Source of the DNA: Pseudonocardia xinjiangensis
GTDB lineage: Bacteria > Actinomycetota > Actinomycetes > Mycobacteriales > Pseudonocardiaceae
Direction: 5' to 3'
Length of the DNA: 64,000 nt
NCBI RefSeq assembly: GCF_012911925.1
Contig: NZ_JAAXKY010000018.1
Location: 1 to 64,000 of the forward strand
The notes beneath the pieces are model-generated. The model saw only the letters and a list, made by a program, of their open reading frames with translations. It ran no database searches and was not told the DNA's origin. Each line of letters begins with the position of its first letter. Within the stretch, counting starts at the first letter, position 1. The position numbers and the translations under genes are program-made. Positions 14,627 to 31,230 of the stretch are shown piece after piece.

Positions 14627-15862
14627 TCAGCGGTAGAGCGTGACCTGAACCGGCGAGCCCGCGGCCAGACCCGTGGCCGCCTCCGGCACCACGAGGCAAC
14701 CGTCGGCGCGGGTGAGCACCGACAGGAGTGCTGACGGGCCGAAGATCGGGGTGGCTGTGCCGTCCTGCACGGCGACCTGCACCACGTCGAGCCGGCCCGC
14801 GGCCGATGGCAGGTCCCGGGAGAGGCGGGCGGGGGTCGACGGCTCGGGCGGCGGCACCGGGCAGCCCGCGAGCCGCCACACCAGCGGCACGCCGACCAGC
14901 CGGAACACCACCAGCGCGGAGAGCGGGTTGCCCGGGAGCCCGATGAGGGGAACCCCGCTGCCGCACTCGGCCTTGCACTCCGCGAGCAGCGTGGGCTTGC
15001 CGGGCTTGATGGCGAGCCCGTGGCACCAGATTTCGCCCAGCGCGGCCACCGCACCTGCCGTCTCGTCGCGGGCTCCCACCGACGACCCGGCCGAGACCAC
15101 CACGAGGTCCGCCTCGCGCAGCGTGTCGCGCAGCGTCGCCTCCAGCGCGCCGGCGTCGTCTGGCACGATCCCGGCGAGCACCGGCTCACCTCCGGCGTCC
15201 CGCACGAGCCCGGCCAGCGCCGACGCCGTGGCGTCGCGGACCTGGCCGGGACGCAGCTGTGCCGTGGACGGGGGCACCACCTCGTCGCCGGTCGAGATGA
15301 TCGCCACGCGCGGGCGGGCGTGCACCCTGACCGTGGTGACGCCGGCCGCGGCCAGCAACCCCAGGTCGGGGGACCGCAGGGGTCTTCCGCCCGGCACCAG
15401 CGGCGCCCCGGCGGCCACGTCCTCGTCGGCACGCACGATCCCGTCGAGCGGCGCCACCGGCCGGGTCACCTCGATCGTGCCGGGCATCGTCTCGGCGGTG
15501 TGCTCCACCATGACCACGGCGTCGGCGCCGTCGGGCAGCACCCCGCCGGTCGGCATCGCGACACAGCCGCCCGGCCGCACGGCCACGGTGGGAGCCATGC
15601 CCATGCGGACCGCCCCCACCAGGTCCAGGTACGACGGCAGCCCCTCGGACGCGCCGTAGGTGTCGGCGGCGCGCACCGCGAAGCCGTCGACGGTGGACCG
15701 GGCGAAGCCCGGCAGCGCCGCGGCGGCGGCCACGTCCGCCGCCGGGACCCGGTGCAGGGCCTCGGCGAGCGGGACGTCCTCGAGCGCGGTGCGGCGGGCG
15801 GGCCGGAACCCCGCCAGCGCCTCCGCGACCGTGCGGGTGGTGAAGAACTCGCGGCCACTCAC
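14627..15862 (-). CDS. moeA: Molybdopterin molybdotransferase MoeA
   Basis: A 411-residue MoeA, inserting Mo (or W) into adenylylated molybdopterin. Visible blocks: LPGFARSTVDGFAVRAADTYG near residue 50, MPTGGVLPDGADAVVMVEHT near 100, AIISTGDEVV near 190, VVSAGSSVGARDETAG near 250, and IGLPGNPLSALV near 300. The GTG at 15862 overlaps the fdhB stop (GTGA), so it is the third gene of a fully coupled fdhA-fdhB-moeA unit. This placement suggests it matures the cofactor of that formate dehydrogenase. The open frame above 15862 is fdhB antiphase sequence. Confidence 0.92.
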   Translation of the reverse strand: MSGREFFTTRTVAEALAGFRPARRTALEDVPLAEALHRVPAADVAAAAALPGFARSTVDGFAVRAADTYGASEGLPSYLDLVGAVRMGMAPTVAVRPGGCVAMPTGGVLPDGADAVVMVEHTAETMPGTIEVTRPVAPLDGIVRADEDVAAGAPLVPGGRPLRSPDLGLLAAAGVTTVRVHARPRVAIISTGDEVVPPSTAQLRPGQVRDATASALAGLVRDAGGEPVLAGIVPDDAGALEATLRDTLREADLVVVSAGSSVGARDETAGAVAALGEIWCHGLAIKPGKPTLLAECKAECGSGVPLIGLPGNPLSALVVFRLVGVPLVWRLAGCPVPPPEPSTPARLSRDLPSAAGRLDVVQVAVQDGTATPIFGPSALLSVLTRADGCLVVPEAATGLAAGSPVQVTLYR

Positions 15863-17616
15863 CTGTCTGGCTGAGCCGCCGAGCCGTTCGGCCTGGGCTG
15901 GTCGCGCGCCGCCGCCCCACCCTTGTCGATGCCGAGCACGCTCACGACCGGACCGAGGGCCACCTGCCCGAGCCCACAGATCGACGTCTTGCGCATGGCC
16001 TCCTCGAGCTGCAGGATCCGGCCGCGCTGCGTCTCGTCGAGCGTGGAGCTCCCCGACTCGATGACGCCCCGGAGCAGCTCGTGCGCCTTCGTCGACCCCA
16101 CGCGGCACGGCACGCACTTGCCGCACGACTCGTTGCGGAAGAACCGCAGCACGTTGGTGGACGCCGCGAGCAGGTCGGTGCCCTCGGCCAGGACGACGAG
16201 CGCCCCGGAACCGAGCATGGTGCCCGCCTCCGCCGCGGTGCCGAAGTCGAGCCGCAGGTCGAGCTGGTCGGGGCCGATGAAGTTGGACGACGCCCCGCCC
16301 GGCTGCACGGCGCCGACCTCCGCTCCGCCCGTGACCCCGCCTGCGAGGTCGATCAGCTCGCGGACCGTGGTGCCCATCGGCACGCAGTAGACGTCGGGCC
16401 GCTCGACATGGCCCGACACGGCGAAGAACTTCCAGCCCACCGAGTCGCCGACGCCCTGGTCCTTCCACCACTGGGCGCCGCGCTGCACGATCACCGGCAC
16501 GTCGGCGAACGTCTCCACGGAGTTGATCAGCGTGGGCCGGCCGTGCAGGCCGTAGTTGCCGGGGAACGGGGGCTTGTTGCGCGGCTCGCCGCGGTGGCCC
16601 TCCATGCACTCCAGCAGCGCGGTCTCCTCACCGAGGATGTAGCCGCCGGGGGAGACGAAGATGTCGATGTTCAGCCGGCGCCCGCTCCCACACGCGTCCG
16701 GCCCGACCACACCGGCGGCCCGCAGCGCGTCGATCTCCTCGCGGAGCACGTGCTCCTCGGGGCCGTACTCGTGCCGGATGAAGACCCAGCCCTCCTCGGC
16801 CCCGACCACGGCCATCCCGAGCAGCAGGCCCTCCAGCACGAGGTGGGGCTGCTGGGCCAGGATCTGGCGGTCCTTGAACGTGCCGGGCTCGGACTCGTCG
16901 GCGTTCACGATGGCGTACTTGGTGGTGCCGGGCTGGGCACCGCGGACCAGGCTCCACTTCTGCCCGGTGGGGAACCCGGCGCCACCCATCCCGCGCAGCC
17001 CGGAGTCCTTCAGCGTGGCCACGATGTCGTCGGCGTCGAGCTCGCCCGCGAGCAGCGCCCGCAGGGTGGCGTAGCGGCCGTCGACGCCCGACCCGGCCGG
17101 GTAGGGGTCGTTGGGCCACGGCTCGACACGGGTGGCCGCGGCGGCGTCACCCACCCCCGAACCGCGGGCGGCGTCGACGAGCTCGTCCACCTCGGCGACG
17201 GGAGCCGGCCGCTCGTTCACCGCCACCGCGGGCGCACTGTCGCAGCGCCCCAGGCAGGACACCTCGACGAGCTCGACGTCCGCGTCGGCGCCGTAGCGCT
17301 CGCGCAGCTCGGCCGTGCGCGCCTCGCCGTCGCGCAGCCAGCACGGCAGGTCGTGGCAGACGTGCAACGCCACCTTCACCGGCGGCTCGGTGCGGAAGTG
17401 CGGGTAGAACGAGATCAGGCCCTCGATCTCGTACCGGGGCCTGCGGGCGTCCCGGGCGAGCTCCTCCAGCTCCTCACGGGGCAGCCAGCCCAGCCGGGCC
17501 TGGATCGCGTTGAGCGCCGGGATGAGCGACGGTCCGGGGAACTTCCCGGCCCGTGCCTCCACACCGGGGACCCGCTGGGAGCGGACCTCGGCCGCGCGGT
17601 CGGACAGCTCGGTCAT
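15859..17616 (-). CDS. fdhB: NAD-dependent formate dehydrogenase, NuoE-NuoF fused electron-transfer subunit
   Basis: A 585-residue diaphorase subunit passing electrons from FdhA to NAD+. Residues ~20-160 form a NuoE-like thioredoxin [2Fe-2S] domain with Cys87, Cys92, Cys121 and Cys125 (CHDLPCW ... SCLGRC). Residues ~200-580 are NuoF-like: GMGGAGFPTGQKW (FMN/NAD site), NADESEPGTFKDR, GAYILGEE-type loop (here GGYILGEETALL), and the [4Fe-4S] motif ESCGKCVPCRVGS followed by SICGLG. The gene overlaps fdhA by 4 bases (ATGA) and moeA by 4 bases. The symbol follows the role; FdsB/FdhB naming varies. Confidence 0.92.
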   Translation of the reverse strand: MTELSDRAAEVRSQRVPGVEARAGKFPGPSLIPALNAIQARLGWLPREELEELARDARRPRYEIEGLISFYPHFRTEPPVKVALHVCHDLPCWLRDGEARTAELRERYGADADVELVEVSCLGRCDSAPAVAVNERPAPVAEVDELVDAARGSGVGDAAAATRVEPWPNDPYPAGSGVDGRYATLRALLAGELDADDIVATLKDSGLRGMGGAGFPTGQKWSLVRGAQPGTTKYAIVNADESEPGTFKDRQILAQQPHLVLEGLLLGMAVVGAEEGWVFIRHEYGPEEHVLREEIDALRAAGVVGPDACGSGRRLNIDIFVSPGGYILGEETALLECMEGHRGEPRNKPPFPGNYGLHGRPTLINSVETFADVPVIVQRGAQWWKDQGVGDSVGWKFFAVSGHVERPDVYCVPMGTTVRELIDLAGGVTGGAEVGAVQPGGASSNFIGPDQLDLRLDFGTAAEAGTMLGSGALVVLAEGTDLLAASTNVLRFFRNESCGKCVPCRVGSTKAHELLRGVIESGSSTLDETQRGRILQLEEAMRKTSICGLGQVALGPVVSVLGIDKGGAAARDQPRPNGSAAQPDR

Positions 17617-20594
17617 GCACGTGCTCCTGCGGTCGACGGGGTCTCAACGTGCGCTGCGCCGAGGGCCTCGACCTGCACCGCGCAGAACTTGAACTCGGGG
17701 ATCTTGCCGGTGGGGTCGACCTCGTCGATCGTCAGGAGGTTGGCCGCCGCCTCGCGGAAGTGGAACGGGATGAAGCAGTTGCCCAGCTGCTCGCGGTGCG
17801 AGATGCGCACGAGCAGCTCGATCGCGCCGCGCCGCGACCGCGCCCGGACCATCTCCCCGTGGGCGAGCCCGCGGTCGGCGGCGTCCTTCGGGTGCATGTA
17901 CACCTCGGCGACCGGGGAGATCGCGTCGAGGGCGTAGGACCGCCGCGTCATCGAGCCGGTGTGCCAGTGCTCCAGCAGCCTGCCGGTGTTGAGCACGAGC
18001 GGGAACTCGCTGTCGGGCAGCTCCCGGGGCGGCAGCCACTGCGCAGGCACCAGGTGGGCCAGTCCGTCGTCGGTGTTGAACTTCTCGTCGAACATGACGA
18101 CGGTGCCGTCGGTGTGCTCCGGGTCGTCGTTCGGGTAGAGCTTCCCGGACAGACCGAGGTTGTCGTACGCGAGGTTCTTGTACGACGGCATCAGCGCCAC
18201 CATCTCGTCGAACACCTCGCTGGGGCTCTCGTAGTTCCAGTCGAGCCCGATGCCGCGCGCGATGTCCTGCACGATCTCCCAGTCCGGCCGGGCCTGGCCG
18301 GGAGGGTCCATCACCTTGCGGCCGAGCTGCACCCGCCGGTCGGTGTTGGTGTACGTACCGTCCTTCTCCAGGTAGGAGGTGGCGGGCAGGATCACGTCGG
18401 CGAACTCGGCCGTCTCGGTCAGGAAGATGTCCTGGACGACGAGGAAGTCCAGCGCGGAGAGCGCCTTGCGCACCTTGTTGATGTTGGGGTCGGACAGGAA
18501 CGGGTTCTCCCCGAGCATGTACATGCCGCGGACGCCGCCGGGCTGCAGTACCGACTTGATGATCTCGGTGACCGTCAGGCCGCGGTTCGGGTCGAGCGTG
18601 GTGCCCCACGCCTCCTCGAAGTGCCGCCGGGTGGCCTCGCGGTCGACGCCCTGGTAGTCGGGGTAGAACATCGGGACCAGCCCGGCGTCGGACGCGCCCT
18701 GCACGTTGTTCTGGCCGCGGAGCGGGTGCAGGCCGGTGCCCGGCCGCCCGACGTTGCCGGTGATCGAGCACAGCGCGATCAGGCAGCGGGCGTTGTCGGT
18801 GCCGGTGGTGTGCTGGGAGATCCCCATCCCCCAGTAGACGACGCCGGCGTTCGCCTCGCCCCACGTCCGCGCGACCTCGCGGATGAGGTCGGCGTCGACG
18901 CCGGTGATCTGCGCGGCGCGCTCCGGCGGGTAGTCGGCCACGGTGCGCGCGAGCTCGTCGTAGTTGGACGTGCGGCCCGCGATGAACTCGCGGTCGATCA
19001 GCCCGAGGCGGATCACCTCGTGCATCACCGAGTTGTAGAACGCCACGTCAGTGCCCGGCTTGAGCTGGACGAAGATGTCGGCGTGCTCCGCCACGGTGGA
19101 CGCGCGCGGGTCGACGTAGATGATCTTCGTGCCGCGCCGGCGGGCCTGCTTGAAGAACGAGCTGGCCACGGGGTGGTTGGCCGTCGGGTTGGAGCCCGTG
19201 ATGATCACGACGTCGGCGTTGGCGACGTCCCCGTAGGTGGTGGACACCGCGCCGGAGCCGACGCCCTCGAACAGCGCCGCCACCGAGGAGGCGTGGCACA
19301 GCCGCGTGCAGTGGTCGACGTTGTTGGTGCCGAACCCGGTGCGGATCAGCTTCTGGAAGAGGTAGGCCTCCTCGTTGGAGCACTTCGCCGACCCGAACCC
19401 GGCGATCGCGCCGGGGCCGCCCTCGGCGTGGATCTCCTTCAGGCGCCGGGCGATGAGGTCGAGCGCCTCCTCCCAGGTGGCCTCCCGGAAGTAGGGCAGC
19501 ACCTCGTCGTAGTCGACGAGCCCGCCCGGCTTGCGGCCACCGCCGCGCTTCCCGCCCGGGTCGTCCTTGCGGCCGCCGCCGCTGCGGTTGCCGCCGTCGC
19601 CGCCGCGGCCCCGGTCGTTGGTCGCCCCGGTGGCCGAGCCCTTGCCCTCGCCGCGCACGTCGGCCGACAGCGCGCTCTTCGGGTAGGCGGAGTCGATGCG
19701 GATCAGCGGCATCGTGAGCCGCTGCGGGGAGGCGGCGTAGTCCCAGCCGTAGCGGCCCTTGACGCACAGCCTGCTCTGCGAACCGGGCTGGTCGCGGCCC
19801 TCGGCGAAGGCGATGGCGCCCCGCTCGCGGTCGACGTAGTAGGTGAGCGCGCAGCCCACGCCGCAGTAGGGGCACACCGAGTCGACCGCGTCGAGCTTCT
19901 CGCGCGGCTGGATCGGGATGTTGCGGATCGACTTGTTGGTGAGCGCGCCGGTCGGGCAGGCCTGCACGCACTCGCCGCACGTGACGCAGGAGCTCGCGCC
20001 CATCGGGTCGTTCAGGTCGAACGCGATGCGCGTGGAGTAGCCCTTGCCGGAGCGGCCGATCACGTCGTTGCCCTGGATGTCGTCACAGGCACGCACGCAC
20101 CGGTCGCAGAGGATGCAGGCGTCGTGGTTGACGTCGATCACGGGGTTGGACGAGTCGACCCCGCGTCCCGACCCGCACGGCAGGTCGGTGGTCTCGCGGG
20201 CGACGCCGAACCCGTCGGCCAGCGAGAGCAGCAGGTTGTCGCCCGTGGTGGTCTGCTTGGGGTCCTCGGCGCGCGGCGGCTGGTCGGACACCAGCAGCTC
20301 GGTGAGCGTGGCGCGGTTGCGCTCCAGCTCCGGGGTGGAGGTCTTGACCTCCATGCCGTCCTCGCAGGGGCGCACGCAGGCCGCCGCGAACACGCGCCCG
20401 CCGGTGTCCACCACGCACATGCGGCAGACACCGACGGGGTCGTAGCGCTCGTTGTGGCAGAGCACCGGGATGTCGACGCCGACCTGCTTCGCCGCGTCGT
20501 AGATCGAGGTGCCCTCCTCGACGGTGACCTCCCGGCCATCGATCGAAGTGGTGACCGTGCGTAAGCTGGTTGCCGGTTCCTGCACCGCTGTCAT
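17613..20594 (-). CDS. fdhA: NAD-dependent formate dehydrogenase catalytic (molybdopterin) subunit
   Basis: A 993-residue Mo/W-bis-PGD enzyme oxidising formate to CO2, cytoplasmic (no Tat signal). Domains in order: [2Fe-2S] ferredoxin with Cys46, 57, 60 and 73; two [4Fe-4S] ferredoxin motifs with Cys160/163/166/170 and Cys203/206/209/213; a molybdopterin-enzyme cluster with Cys241/244/248/277; then the bis-PGD domains. The active-site ligand is Cys433 in VDHCTRLCHASS, not selenocysteine. An unusual Gly/Arg/Lys-rich insertion (about residues 308-358) sits between the Fe-S domain and EVLPYFREATWEEAL. The gene is first in the fdhA-fdhB-moeA operon, overlapping fdhB by 4 bases. Confidence 0.95.
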   Translation of the reverse strand: MTAVQEPATSLRTVTTSIDGREVTVEEGTSIYDAAKQVGVDIPVLCHNERYDPVGVCRMCVVDTGGRVFAAACVRPCEDGMEVKTSTPELERNRATLTELLVSDQPPRAEDPKQTTTGDNLLLSLADGFGVARETTDLPCGSGRGVDSSNPVIDVNHDACILCDRCVRACDDIQGNDVIGRSGKGYSTRIAFDLNDPMGASSCVTCGECVQACPTGALTNKSIRNIPIQPREKLDAVDSVCPYCGVGCALTYYVDRERGAIAFAEGRDQPGSQSRLCVKGRYGWDYAASPQRLTMPLIRIDSAYPKSALSADVRGEGKGSATGATNDRGRGGDGGNRSGGGRKDDPGGKRGGGRKPGGLVDYDEVLPYFREATWEEALDLIARRLKEIHAEGGPGAIAGFGSAKCSNEEAYLFQKLIRTGFGTNNVDHCTRLCHASSVAALFEGVGSGAVSTTYGDVANADVVIITGSNPTANHPVASSFFKQARRRGTKIIYVDPRASTVAEHADIFVQLKPGTDVAFYNSVMHEVIRLGLIDREFIAGRTSNYDELARTVADYPPERAAQITGVDADLIREVARTWGEANAGVVYWGMGISQHTTGTDNARCLIALCSITGNVGRPGTGLHPLRGQNNVQGASDAGLVPMFYPDYQGVDREATRRHFEEAWGTTLDPNRGLTVTEIIKSVLQPGGVRGMYMLGENPFLSDPNINKVRKALSALDFLVVQDIFLTETAEFADVILPATSYLEKDGTYTNTDRRVQLGRKVMDPPGQARPDWEIVQDIARGIGLDWNYESPSEVFDEMVALMPSYKNLAYDNLGLSGKLYPNDDPEHTDGTVVMFDEKFNTDDGLAHLVPAQWLPPRELPDSEFPLVLNTGRLLEHWHTGSMTRRSYALDAISPVAEVYMHPKDAADRGLAHGEMVRARSRRGAIELLVRISHREQLGNCFIPFHFREAAANLLTIDEVDPTGKIPEFKFCAVQVEALGAAHVETPSTAGARA

Positions 20595-26949: not shown

Positions 26950-28455
26950 ATGACCGAGGTGGAGCGCACGGCCAATACCCGCCCGCTGGGCGTCAGCAGA
27001 CCCGATCTCGCCGTGGTGGACCTCCCCACCCCGGAGGAGGTGTTCCGGGTCCCGCGGATCGGTGCCCGCCAGCTGGTGATGTACGTGGTGGGCCCGAGCC
27101 TCATCGTGCTCGGGATCTCGATCGGCAGCGGGGAATGGCTGCTCGGACCGCAGGCGGTGGGGCAGTACGGGTTCGTCGGCGTCGGCTGGGTGATCGTGGT
27201 GTCCGCGGTGCTGCAGACCTTCTACAACGTGGAGTGCGCCCGCTACGTGGTGGCCACCGGGGAGGCACCCGTGGTCGGCTGGGGTCGGGTGCCGCCCGGC
27301 AAGGCGCTGTGGATCCCGCTGTCCGTCTTCGTGGTGATCTTCGCGTTCATCGCGGGCGGCTGGGCCGCATCTGCGGGCCAGGGCCTCTTCGCGCTCGTCA
27401 ACGGGCGGGTCGCGACCGCTGCCGAGGTGCAGCAGACCCGCTGGTACGCCATCGGGCTGCTGGTCGTGGTCTTCCTCATCACCGCGGCGGCCCGCCGGAT
27501 CAGCAGGGCGTTGGAGCTGTCCAACTGGGCGATGGTGGGCTTCATCCTGGTCGCGCTGGTCGTCATCGATCTGGTCGTCGTTCCGTGGAGCGTGTGGTGG
27601 GAGGGCATCCGCGGGTTCGTCACGCCGGCGGCCCCACCGGCGGGAATCACCGCCACTCAGCTCGGCGCGCTGGCCGGGTTCACCGCGCTGGCGTCGGGAC
27701 TGAACTGGTACGTCATGGGCCACTACCGCGACAAGGGCTACGGCATGGGCCATCGCACCGGCTACATCGCCGGGATGCGCGGTGGGCAGCGCGAAGTGCT
27801 GTCGGTGGGCGTCACCTTCCCCGACGACGAGCGCAACACGAGCCTGTGGCGGCGCTGGTACCGGCTCCTGATGGTGGACATGTGGGGCGTGTTCTTCGTC
27901 GGGGCGATGCTGGGAATGCTGCTCCCGACGGTGCTGATGTCGCAGGCGGTGGCGTTGTCGGGCGAGCAGCCCACCACGGCCAACGTACCGACGTTCGTGG
28001 CGAGCGCGCTGCAGCCCGAGTACGGCTCGGGCATGTTCTACCTGCTGCTCCTGCTGGGCGTGCTCATCCTGTTCTCCACCCAGCTGGGGATCTTCGAGGC
28101 CATGGTGCGGGTGGTCACCGATGCCGCGCCCGCGGTGAGCCCGCGCATGCGCGCGCTGATCGAGGGCGACCCACGGCGCTTCTACTACCCGTTCATGATC
28201 GTGCTGCTGGTGGCGATATCGGCGATCCTGCACCTCGCGGTGCCGGTGACGCTGGTCCAGTTCTCCGCGAACATGTCGAACCTCGGTGCGCTGATCTACC
28301 CGTTCCTGCTGATCTACCTGAACAGCAGGCTCCCGAAGGCGGCCAGGCCGCGGCCGTGGCACTACGTGATCCTGCTGCTCAACTTCCTGTTCTTCGGGTT
28401 CTTCTTCGTCAACTTCGTCGCCGACGCCTTCGGCGACCCGCTGATCACGTTCTGA
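26950..28455 (+). CDS. NRAMP-related membrane transporter lacking the canonical metal motif
   Basis: A 501-residue protein with about eleven hydrophobic helices and the NRAMP-like order of segments. In place of the metal-binding DPGN motif, helix 1 reads PSLIVLGISIGSGEWLLGP, and helix 6 (TALASGLNWYVMGHYRD) lacks the usual MPHN. Substrate is therefore unlikely to be the usual divalent metals without change. The gene is monocistronic and starts at an ATG 26950 after GGGGAG. It converges on the aldehyde oxidoreductase gene, 33 bases apart. Confidence 0.75.
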   Translation: MTEVERTANTRPLGVSRPDLAVVDLPTPEEVFRVPRIGARQLVMYVVGPSLIVLGISIGSGEWLLGPQAVGQYGFVGVGWVIVVSAVLQTFYNVECARYVVATGEAPVVGWGRVPPGKALWIPLSVFVVIFAFIAGGWAASAGQGLFALVNGRVATAAEVQQTRWYAIGLLVVVFLITAAARRISRALELSNWAMVGFILVALVVIDLVVVPWSVWWEGIRGFVTPAAPPAGITATQLGALAGFTALASGLNWYVMGHYRDKGYGMGHRTGYIAGMRGGQREVLSVGVTFPDDERNTSLWRRWYRLLMVDMWGVFFVGAMLGMLLPTVLMSQAVALSGEQPTTANVPTFVASALQPEYGSGMFYLLLLLGVLILFSTQLGIFEAMVRVVTDAAPAVSPRMRALIEGDPRRFYYPFMIVLLVAISAILHLAVPVTLVQFSANMSNLGALIYPFLLIYLNSRLPKAARPRPWHYVILLLNFLFFGFFFVNFVADAFGDPLITF

Positions 28456-28488: not shown

Positions 28489-30291
28489 TCAGGGGGTGAG
28501 CAGCAGGTCCGCCACGTCGGAGGGGTCGGGGCGGCCCTCGACGTCGAGGCCGCGGCCGGTGTAGTAGCCCTCGACCATCGAGCGCAGGCGTTCCGCCGTG
28601 AGCGTCGCGGTGCGGCCGGAGCCCAGCTCGAGCGGCGTGTCGAGCATGCGCCGGGGGAGCGTGTCGTCGTCGGTCGTGGCGCCCTCCCGCAGGTTGAACA
28701 CCCGCTTGGCCAGCACGATCCGGCGGGCCACCGCCCGCAGCTCGTCGGCGGTGACGTCCCATCCGGTGACGGACCGCAGGAGCGTCGCCCACTCGTCGAA
28801 CGGCTCGGTGAACACCCCGCGCAGGAACTTGCAGAGGATCATCGAGTCCATCACGGCGGCGCGGTCCTCGGTGCCGATCGCGGCGGCGACGTGCGCGGAG
28901 CCGCCGGTCAGCCGGTCCAGGTCACCCGACAGGTCGGCCTCGTAGGCGCCGGAGCGGTTGTGGTCGGCCCCTCGCGCGTTGACCGCGAGCCCCAGCGCCA
29001 TCGACTGCAGCGACCGCGGCTCGTACCCCGGCAGCTCCAGGCCCTTGACCTGGGGTGCGAAGTCGATCGACCCCTGCCCGACGACCGATGCGGCCGCGCG
29101 CGAGCCGAGGGACAGCAGCTCGCCGAGCCCGTCGGACCGGGAGCCGATCAGGTCGAGCGCCCGCAGCAGCGCGGGGCCGTCGCCGAACCTCAGCCACGGC
29201 GCGTCGATCAGGCCGCGCTCCACGCACTCCATGGCCCACGCGATCGTGCCGCCCGCCGAGATCGTGTCGATGCCGAGCTCGTCGCAGCGGGCGCTGGCGG
29301 CGAACACGTCGTCGGGGTCCGACACCCCGCACAGGGGGCCGAGCGCGAACACGTTCTCGTACTCCATGCGCTGGCTGCCCCCGCCCTTGCGGGAGTAGAT
29401 GTGCTCGCAGCCGATGGAGCACGACGCGCAGCTGTTGCGGGCCACCCCGCGCATCTCGTGCAGCTCCTCGGCGGCCAGCCGGGGCGCCTCGGCGAAGGTG
29501 GCGGCGGTGAAGTTGCGGGTCGGGAGCGTGGACACGGCGTTGAACGCCAGCAGGTTGGCCAGCGTGCCCAGCTCGCGGTACTTGGCGGTGGCCGGGCCGA
29601 AGCTGCGCTCGCGCAGGCTCTTGGCTGCGGCGAGCACCGCAGCGGGATCGGCGACGTCCACCCTCGTACCGGCCTTGACCAGCACCGCCTTGATGTTCTT
29701 CGCGCCCAGCACGGCACCGAGGCCGCCGCGCCCGGCGTGCCGCCCGTCGTGGCTGATCGTGGCGTACCGGACGCCGCGCTCCCCGGCGGATCCGATCGCC
29801 GCCGTGCGCCACCCGCGGCCGAACCGCTCGCGCACCGCCGACTCGGCCTCCGCCGCCGGCATCCCGGCGAGCTCGGGCGCCGCCTCGAGACGAGCGCCCG
29901 ACGCGTCGACCAGCACCACCGACAGCTCGTCGGCCCGCCCGCGCACGACGATGGCGTCGTTGCCGGTGAGCTTGCCGGAGATCGCGAACTGGGACGACGC
30001 CAGCGCGTCGGTGATCATCCCGGTCAGCGGCGACTTGGCGAGCACCGCGAACTTGGCGCTCGTGGTCAGCGGGGTGCCCACCAGCGGTGAGAACACGAAC
30101 GCGAGCGGGGCCTCGGGAGCCAGCGGGTCGACGCCGGGGGGAGCGAGCCGGTGCAGCAGCCAGGTGCCCAGCCCGACCCCACCGAGGTACGCGCGGAGGA
30201 CCTGGTCGTCCAGCTCGAGTGGTGTGCCTGTGGCGCCGGCGCCGCTCACGTCGACGACCATGGCCCGTCCGAAATATCCGCCTGCCGTCAT
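28489..30291 (-). CDS. Aldehyde:ferredoxin oxidoreductase (tungsten/molybdopterin enzyme)
   Basis: A 600-residue AOR-family enzyme that oxidises aldehydes to acids with a bis-molybdopterin W or Mo cofactor and one [4Fe-4S] cluster. The cluster ligands are Cys288, Cys291 and Cys295 (NSCASCSIGCEH) and probably Cys487 (MILCKFLRG). The N-terminal cofactor domain begins YFGRAMVVDVSG, and KFAVLAKSPLTGMITDALAS near residue 80 and GRHAGRGGLGAVLGAKNIKAV near 183 are strong AOR motifs. It follows the MobA-MoaD fusion on the same strand (60 bases). A -10-like TACAGT 7 bases before the ATG would give leaderless mRNA. The substrate is not predictable. Confidence 0.93.
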   Translation of the reverse strand: MTAGGYFGRAMVVDVSGAGATGTPLELDDQVLRAYLGGVGLGTWLLHRLAPPGVDPLAPEAPLAFVFSPLVGTPLTTSAKFAVLAKSPLTGMITDALASSQFAISGKLTGNDAIVVRGRADELSVVLVDASGARLEAAPELAGMPAAEAESAVRERFGRGWRTAAIGSAGERGVRYATISHDGRHAGRGGLGAVLGAKNIKAVLVKAGTRVDVADPAAVLAAAKSLRERSFGPATAKYRELGTLANLLAFNAVSTLPTRNFTAATFAEAPRLAAEELHEMRGVARNSCASCSIGCEHIYSRKGGGSQRMEYENVFALGPLCGVSDPDDVFAASARCDELGIDTISAGGTIAWAMECVERGLIDAPWLRFGDGPALLRALDLIGSRSDGLGELLSLGSRAAASVVGQGSIDFAPQVKGLELPGYEPRSLQSMALGLAVNARGADHNRSGAYEADLSGDLDRLTGGSAHVAAAIGTEDRAAVMDSMILCKFLRGVFTEPFDEWATLLRSVTGWDVTADELRAVARRIVLAKRVFNLREGATTDDDTLPRRMLDTPLELGSGRTATLTAERLRSMVEGYYTGRGLDVEGRPDPSDVADLLLTP

Positions 30292-30297
30292 GGTGAA

Positions 30298-30307
30298 GAC
30301 TGTATGC
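30298..30307 (-). promoter_or_regulatory. Likely -10 of the aldehyde oxidoreductase gene
   Basis: Minus-strand GCATACAGTC, the same ten bases as before fdhA. TACAGT ends 7 bases upstream of the ATG at 30291, so transcription would start at or next to the start codon. No -35 could be fixed. Confidence 0.4.
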
Positions 30308-30351
30308 CGATGTTGGCGCCGCTGCTCGCGCGTTCGGTGCCGGGGGACGGG

Positions 30352-31230
30352 TCAGCCGCCCGCGTCGGCGGACAGGAAGGCGACCGTGTCGCCTGCCACC
30401 AGCGGCATCTCCGCGTCGCGGGTGATCTGGTCGCCGTTCAGGGCGGCGACGACGTGCCGGTCCAGCGGTAGCCCGACGGCGGCCGCCGCGGCGCCGAGAG
30501 TGGCCGCCTCCACCACGGTGGGGCCGCGCTTGCCACCGGACGCGAGCGCCCCGAAACGCTGGACGGTGATCTCCGGGGCGGGCCGGGCCCGCGCGACGCG
30601 GTAGTCGTCGGGCTCGTTGACGTTCAGCACCGAGTCCAGCTCCGGGTCCAGCGCGCGCAGCCGGGGGTCGGCGAGCAGGCCGGCGTCGTCGATGCGGCGC
30701 ACCCGGCAGTGGTCGAACAGCATCGCGAGCTTGAGCTGCCCGTGCGTCACCATCCCGGCGACGACCGGCGCGAGCGCCGTGCGGTACGCGGCCGCCAGCG
30801 GCTGGCGGTGCCCGCCTGCGTGCGGCAGCACGACGTCGACCTCGGCGTCGAGCGCGGACAGCACCCGCCGCACGTATGCGGGGTGCAGGAACGGCAGGTC
30901 GGTGGAGCAGACGAACGCGATGCGCGCGCGGTCCGACAACGCGGCGAGCCCGATGGCGATGCCCTGCATCGGCCCGCGGCCCTCCACGGGGTCGTCCACC
31001 GTCTCGACACCCGCCGGCAGTGCGGGAAGGGCCTGGCCCGGCGCCCGGACCACGACGACCGGCCCGTCGACGGTGCGCGCCAGCAACCCGGTGGTGCGGC
31101 GCAGCAGGGTGGAGCCGTGCCATTCGAGCGCGGCCTTGGACTCACCCATCCTCGAGGAGCGGCCGCCGGCGAGCACGATCCCCGCGGCCGACCCGTCGTC
31201 GGGTGCAACGCTGTGGCTGCTCACCCCCAC
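30352..31230 (-). CDS. MobA-like nucleotidyltransferase fused to a MoaD/ThiS-type sulfur carrier
   Basis: A 292-residue two-domain protein. Residues ~15-200 are MobA-like: IVLAGGRSSRMGESKAALEW is the nucleotide-binding signature, and FVCSTDLPFLHP and SVLNVNEPDDY are the later family motifs. Residues ~212-292 are a ubiquitin-like beta-grasp domain ending FLSADAGG; the C-terminal Gly-Gly is exposed at the very end of the protein, as needed for adenylylation and thiocarboxylation in MoaD. The protein thus joins an early (sulfur donation) and a late (guanylyl transfer) step of cofactor synthesis. It is directly upstream of the AOR gene and probably serves it. Confidence 0.88.
   Translation of the reverse strand: MGVSSHSVAPDDGSAAGIVLAGGRSSRMGESKAALEWHGSTLLRRTTGLLARTVDGPVVVVRAPGQALPALPAGVETVDDPVEGRGPMQGIAIGLAALSDRARIAFVCSTDLPFLHPAYVRRVLSALDAEVDVVLPHAGGHRQPLAAAYRTALAPVVAGMVTHGQLKLAMLFDHCRVRRIDDAGLLADPRLRALDPELDSVLNVNEPDDYRVARARPAPEITVQRFGALASGGKRGPTVVEAATLGAAAAAVGLPLDRHVVAALNGDQITRDAEMPLVAGDTVAFLSADAGG

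Follow-up and report, generated by a model that had tools for sequence, protein, structure and literature searches.

Within a 64,000-nucleotide (nt) stretch of the Pseudonocardia xinjiangensis genome (contig NZ_JAAXKY010000018.1, positions 1 to 64,000; hereafter the window), one gene codes for a single chain in which a MobA-like domain is followed by a C-terminal MoaD/ThiS-like beta-grasp tail, and this gene stands directly upstream of one for an aldehyde:ferredoxin oxidoreductase (AOR). Our analysis indicates that the fusion is probably a housekeeping MobA extended at its C-terminus by an AOR-dedicated MoaD, which most likely carries sulfur for the pterin of the AOR. At the sequence level we find two domains, a free Gly-Gly end, an operon with the AOR, a tail whose conservation depends on the AOR, and a MobA half whose conservation does not. 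The original prediction had already described a MobA motif and a beta-grasp domain with an exposed Gly-Gly in one chain, immediately ahead of the AOR; the Pfam matches and predicted models bear out the former, and the AOR start, 60 nt past the fusion stop, confirms the latter.

The N-terminal half of the fusion is matched by the Pfam family NTP_transf_3 over residues 17-161 (E 2.1e-31) and has a GGxxxRMGxxK nucleotide motif, conserved Asp residues and a late NxN motif, the first and last of which we take to be MobA motifs. We call the half MobA-like, and the corresponding activity (guanylylation) would be expected of it. The tail gave a weak ThiS family match by sequence, at residues 241-292 (E 2.5e-4, 22.0 bits, just under the cut-off of 22.5), and scored 24.1 bits, above the cut-off, in a genome-wide search. 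This weak call is backed by structure prediction, since the AlphaFold 2 (AF2) model of the tail alone (predicted local distance difference test, pLDDT, 88.9; predicted template modelling score, pTM, 0.79) had E. coli MoaD (1fm0_D, E 2.5e-4) as its top PDB match, while the predicted model of the whole fusion (pLDDT 90.3, pTM 0.89) had MobA 1h4d at the top (Foldseek). The chain ends in ...FLSADAGG, and as neither terminal glycine varies among 58 aligned AOR-positive fusions, window included, the Gly-Gly end is not a matter of chance. Homology to relatives begins near residue 14, and the true start codon is uncertain.

The evidence that carries our reading is the distribution of this Gly-Gly end among relatives of the fusion, the closest named ones being Pseudonocardia. 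It was present in 59/59 AOR-positive copies (window included), in 5/33 copies from AOR-negative genomes, meaning those in which PF01314 found no AOR, and in 0/2 second copies, which stand away from the AOR in AOR-positive genomes. The 94 rows counted are those whose AOR status was judged and whose end could be read; L096 and L105-L109 (cut, remote or fragments) and the Nonomuraea copy L142 were left out. The 59 AOR-positive copies amount to 58 distinct ones, as L060 and L111 share one contig position. The AOR was judged from the locus alone in eight AOR-positive rows (L046, L053, L054, L059, L066, L067, L073 and L085), and L047, with a truncated AOR, and L104, with an AOR read in pieces, were scored as positive. 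This wider sample was gathered partly by means of a peptide pattern derived from the tail; a sample of the genus Pseudonocardia collected without that pattern agrees, with Gly-Gly in 17/17 AOR-positive versus 1/16 AOR-negative cases (Fisher p 1.5e-8). The genus count covers 34/36 genomes (G006 and G020 excluded), and G018 was dropped because its copy is a fragment, also without a terminal Gly-Gly. The original prediction was to be abandoned if homologous tails lacked a conserved Gly-Gly or if fusions occurred irrespective of AOR: the AOR-positive homologues keep the glycines throughout, and relatives do occur in AOR-less genomes, although the tail there is usually decayed or gone.

The two halves of the chain behave differently in these comparisons. 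Mean identity of the MobA part to the window was 0.68 in 57 AOR-positive rows and 0.65 in the 33 rows without an adjoining AOR (31 AOR-negative copies plus the two second copies), whereas the tail averaged 0.71 versus 0.41, and its last 34 residues 0.80 versus 0.43. Ten MobA residues (G22, G23, R27, M28, G29, K32, D80, D111, P113 and N205) are present in 57/57 AOR-positive and 33/33 other rows, and N203 in 53/57 and 33/33, respectively. The identity, tree, rate and residue analyses omit L103, which a contig end truncates, L079 and L127, whose frames are odd, and L005, the locus entry of the window itself; the window served as the reference in the identity and residue counts and as an AOR-positive row in the tree contrasts. 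The median ratio of nonsynonymous divergence (dN) in the tail to that in MobA was 0.99 over 1595 AOR-positive pairs versus 2.01 over 406 other pairs, the pairs not being independent of one another. In four AOR-negative copies (L123, L126, L132 and L133) MobA is 204-223 amino acids (aa) long and the tail is nearly gone. Tails without an AOR mostly retain a P-L-x-x-G-D core (P, L, G and D each at 0.85-0.88), which suggests that the tail is ancestral and was lost rather than gained. The dedicated factor for the AOR cofactor that had originally been proposed thus holds for the tail and not for the whole chain, since the MobA half is conserved equally well in genomes that have no AOR. The alternative in the original prediction, a tail turned protein-binding tag, is neither favoured nor disfavoured.

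The same pattern recurs across the phylogeny and within a single genome. A tree built from the MobA part of 91 rows has 18 changes of the AOR state and 14 of the Gly-Gly state; independent contrasts across its well supported branches gave 13 pairs, of which 10.5 were concordant, 0 opposite and 2.5 showed no difference (median p 0.002). With an earlier, quickly built tree the 7 contrasts ran 5.9 to 0, the median p being 0.031 and the range reaching 0.0625. Pseudonocardia alaniniphila (G008) holds two copies, of which L045 adjoins an AOR and a formate dehydrogenase (FDH) and ends in AGG, and L036, without an AOR, ends in AGD and has, some 50 nt further on, an NRAMP gene that is 91% identical to the NRAMP gene beyond the AOR in the window. 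Evolution has repeated the same deletion often, in that where the AOR is gone the Gly-Gly end is usually gone and the MobA half stays, and the dedication of the tail to the AOR becomes testable through the removal of two residues. Two of the omitted copies have unusual frames: L127 (G028:C1058) continues from MobA without a stop to 412 aa from the match start, either a fusion or a sequencing error, with an extension that may resemble a TenA/PqqC-type domain, and in L079 the frame extends to 518 aa from the match start, past where tails normally stop, which points to a frameshift downstream of the MobA domain.

The other cofactor genes of the genome bear on what each half may do. A canonical moaA-moaD pair lies elsewhere, and genes for moaC, a moaB/mog-like protein, moaE and a MocA-like transferase are on another contig; the genome also has ThiS and a further carrier that we take, from its neighbours, to be CysO-like. 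The fusion is the only match in the genome across the whole TIGR02665 MobA model (positions 2-184). Together with the retention of the MobA half without an AOR, this makes it look like the housekeeping MobA. The MocA-like gene C260, considered as a second MobA, matches positions 2-133 only (E 2.7e-7), and it was rejected, its best NCBIfam matches being to NicBOxredNboR (120/260 bits) and MocA (71.5/186), all below cut-off; this check covers the fusion and C260 among the 9 PF12804 matches listed for the genome. A set of 32 genomes comprised Pseudonocardia and three others from its order. Besides the fusion, 29/32 (all but G014, G035 and G057) have a ThiS-family match as long as a MoaD, as judged by length and score and examined individually for the window genome alone. 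One MoaE was present in 31/32, with or without an AOR, and a second MoaE as a partner for the tail was not seen in any of the 32. The AOR-positive genome G057 matches the MobA model twice over nearly its full length, and both of its only two ThiS-family matches differ from MoaD in length; by these matches it possibly lacks a canonical MoaD.

We propose that the MobA half would add guanosine monophosphate (GMP) to the cofactor for enzymes that use the bis-molybdopterin guanine dinucleotide (bis-MGD) form, such as formate dehydrogenase. The terminal glycine of the tail would be adenylated by a MoeB/E1-type enzyme and then thiocarboxylated, and the tail would donate the dithiolene sulfurs to the AOR pterin, presumably with the use of MoaE, alongside the separate canonical MoaD of the genome. 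The benefit of the fusion may be joint expression of both ends of cofactor synthesis within a tungsten-enzyme operon, or channelling.

Several points weigh against this reading. Five AOR-negative genomes, all metagenome-assembled genomes (MAGs), retain Gly-Gly: L052 has all 12 tail residues that are invariant in AOR-positive copies and no AOR was found there, and L077, L084 and L094 have 9-11/12. The fifth, L055, also has all 12, yet at the AOR site it shows a weak AOR-like match (29 residues, E 0.027) and a piece of the FDH of the operon (FDH1), perhaps the trace of a recent AOR loss. Many further rows are MAGs as well, in which the absence of AOR or FDH1 is possibly an assembly gap, and the MobA tree is poorly resolved (36/90 inner branches open in the earlier quick tree). 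The fusion falls below the curated MobA models (NF001855, 108 bits versus 205; TIGR02665, 74 versus 152), although the TIGR02665 cut-off was reached by 0/32 genomes of the set described above and by only 1/14 control genomes, and so is narrow. The tail ends in SADAGG, and the canonical MoaD of the same genome in PPFAGG; as the Pro-Pro before AGG is missing from the tail, the tail need not be able to bind the single MoaE. When scored with a profile of the tail, the AOR-linked MoaDs of Azospirillum (1.1 bits) and Peptoclostridium (-0.1) fell below the canonical MoaD of the window genome (7.2); that of Thermomicrobium, which scored best of six at 17.3 bits, speaks for the reading. Finally, in Thermococcus kodakarensis any one of three ubiquitin-like proteins (Ubls) suffices for activation of the AOR (PMC11323500), and dedication therefore need not be strict.

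Two further readings make the AOR itself the target of the tail. According to the first, which we regard as possible yet doubtful, the AOR itself is the target or partner of the Gly-Gly tail, which would dock, conjugate or serve as a delivery tag and is not a sulfur donor to molybdopterin (MPT) synthase, while the MobA part is a scaffold that brings the cofactor to apo-AOR. Such a role would fit a tail whose conservation is tied to the AOR and not to a general need for cofactor, the MoaD-length ThiS matches (29/32) and single MoaE (31/32) that occur irrespective of AOR, and the missing Pro-Pro; moreover, Ubls take part in conjugation in archaea, and PMC11323500 describes as not known how a given Ubl is linked to its apo-enzyme. 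However, stand-alone AOR-linked MoaDs have been read as molybdopterin-synthesis partners for the AOR cofactor (PMC1779556). In the second, likewise tentative, the tail would be an adaptor of ubiquitin-like type, physically coupling MobA to the AOR through its Gly-Gly, so that one polypeptide would make bis-MGD for FDH and route nucleotide-free tungstopterin to the AOR; if true, this would tie one particular Ubl directly and physically to one particular apo-enzyme.

It is improbable that the tail serves the FDH of the same operon, with the AOR a mere proxy for that operon. FDH1 follows the AOR in most loci with enough flank (32/40, see below) and was found in 0/33 AOR-negative genomes searched (best identity about 41%), save for the local fragment in L055, and it is present at >=74% identity in 30/38 AOR-positive genomes searched. 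Yet the other eight (G011, G057, G069, G084, G089, G091, G098 and G100) have no FDH1 at E 1e-100, a threshold at which short pieces are missed and with several of these genomes being MAGs, and all eight retain Gly-Gly. The tail thus follows the AOR, which is the better partner, and dedication to FDH is disfavoured. A role for the tail as a general backup MoaD, linked to the AOR by phylogenetic inertia, is very improbable: AOR-positive rows do form local clusters in the tree, but the independent contrasts run 10.5 to 0 and in P. alaniniphila the AOR-less copy has lost the terminal Gly that the AOR copy retains.

The AOR of the window is the sole PF01314 match in its genome. It matches both PF02730 (AFOR_N, E 9.2e-55) and PF01314 (AFOR_C, E 1.8e-99), and aligns to the Pyrococcus furiosus AOR (1aor) with cysteines at four places, which we take to be the cluster ligands in 1aor. 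We measured the operon layout at 49/59 AOR-positive rows, 10 with short flanks or read in parts being left out. The gap between the fusion stop and the AOR had a median of 20.5 nt and was <=120 nt in 41/46 loci with a measurable AOR start; an FDH alpha (>70% identity) followed within 1.5 kb after the AOR in 32/40 loci with >=1.5 kb of flank, usually succeeded, where the flank was long enough, by a fused NuoE/NuoF-type beta. Nonomuraea gerenzanensis, outside the counts, shows the compact order of fusion, AOR, FDH alpha and NuoEF. In the window itself the FDH genes (15859-20594) stand 7.9 kb beyond the AOR with several other genes between (Table 1). Both FDH subunits have the MeFDH1 of Methylorubrum as their top PDB match (alpha E about 1e-300, beta 5e-104), and they share its make-up of an alpha with a NuoG-like front and a fused NuoE/NuoF beta. 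The metal in the window AOR and FDH would presumably be tungsten, and we consider the pair probably a tungsten-enzyme operon in an actinobacterium, one in which an AOR is paired with a MeFDH1-like formate dehydrogenase. At L104 (G029:C78) both AOR and FDH are read in pieces, perhaps through sequencing errors, and Gly-Gly is retained. Seven AOR-less Pseudonocardia (G001, G009, G014, G016, G022, G026 and G035) have, roughly 4 kb or less from a MobA with a decayed or lost tail, the gene of another FDH (38-40% identity), whose frame has an in-frame TGA (two in G026), perhaps for selenocysteine. The NRAMP-like transporter of the window (26950-28455) passed an NCBIfam model and gave nothing in Pfam, and an Rfam scan of window positions 12000-36000 returned zero RNA families at gathering score.

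Table 1 Coordinates of the fusion gene, its parts and the associated genes in the window.
Feature	Position	Strand	Remarks
MobA-MoaD fusion gene	30352..31230	(-)	292 aa, GTG start, start codon uncertain
MobA-like domain of the fusion, residues 16-214	30589..31185	(-)	Pfam NTP_transf_3, Foldseek MobA 1h4d, residue counts
MoaD/ThiS-like beta-grasp tail of the fusion, residues 219-292	30355..30576	(-)	PF02597, AF2 model, Foldseek MoaD 1fm0_D, AOR-dependent conservation
Codons of terminal Gly291-Gly292 of the fusion	30355..30360	(-)	invariant in the AOR-positive alignment
Aldehyde:ferredoxin oxidoreductase (AOR), 600 aa	28489..30291	(-)	starts 60 nt past the end of the fusion gene
MeFDH1-like alpha subunit of formate dehydrogenase, 993 aa	17613..20594	(-)	
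Beta subunit of formate dehydrogenase, NuoE/NuoF fusion type, 585 aa	15859..17616	(-)	
NRAMP-like transporter	26950..28455	(+)	convergent with AOR, between AOR and FDH; context, outside the operon

Beyond the relatives described above, we surveyed AOR loci more broadly. PF01314 was found in 90/396 genomes of a phylum sample (the window genome included), and a search of 80 of the 89 other AOR genomes recovered a full relative of the fusion (E < 1e-100) in five (G143, G293, G363, G445 and G450), each adjoining the AOR, and none in the remaining 75/80. A ThiS-family scan of 36 of the AOR genomes of this sample, 31 of them without the fusion, placed a match within 1.5 kb of the AOR in at least 12/31 of these fusion-less actinobacterial genomes. 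Among 10 hand-picked non-actinobacterial AORs, all plasmid-borne, an annotated MoaD-like gene adjoins the AOR in 5/6 bacteria, the exception being Thermus HB27, and in 0/4 haloarchaea examined. The MobA fusion was encountered only in Actinomycetota, where our sampling mostly fell.

E. coli MobA (1h4d, 1e5k) shares its fold and nucleotide motifs with the fusion at about 22% identity, and we take it to be without a MoaD tail, as the solved chains have 188 residues. Methylorubrum extorquens MeFDH1 (7vw6, 7e5z), the nearest solved relative of the FDH alpha and beta of the operon, is a W-bis-MGD enzyme whose maturation requires moeA1, mobB and fdhD; that system differs in that a MobA-MoaD fusion is not named in the available part of PMC13197769. 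A published MobA-MoaD fusion, or a loss of the tail with the AOR, was not found in the literature searched, which mostly excluded subscription journals, and specifically no such fusion appeared in the accessible parts of PMC1779556, PMC2948915, PMC6365974, PMC2408646, PMC6147048, PMC2700814, PMC11323500 and PMC13197769. Aromatoleum aorD/aorE (PMC6365974) and T. kodakarensis tk1065 (PMC11323500) include a MoaD-like protein coded with the AOR, but as a separate gene. In Thermomicrobium roseum, the MoaD/ThiS protein TRD_RS14745 is likewise directly upstream of an AOR, which is 49% identical to that of the window, but it is a stand-alone protein of 93 aa without a MobA domain. It ends in AAQAGG, while the AOR-linked MoaDs of Azospirillum and Peptoclostridium retain PP.

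The AOR-linked stand-alone MoaD is already known. Iyer, Burroughs and Aravind (2006, PMC1779556) described distinct MoaD genes adjacent to AOR, in some organisms apart from the molybdenum cofactor (Moco) operon, suggested that they serve the tungsten cofactor of the AOR, and noted one fused to the AOR in Azoarcus; the word MobA has 0 occurrences in the main text. The window tail resembles these MoaDs in that it adjoins an AOR and stands apart from the Moco operon, and differs from them as the C-terminal domain of what is apparently the only MobA of its genome.

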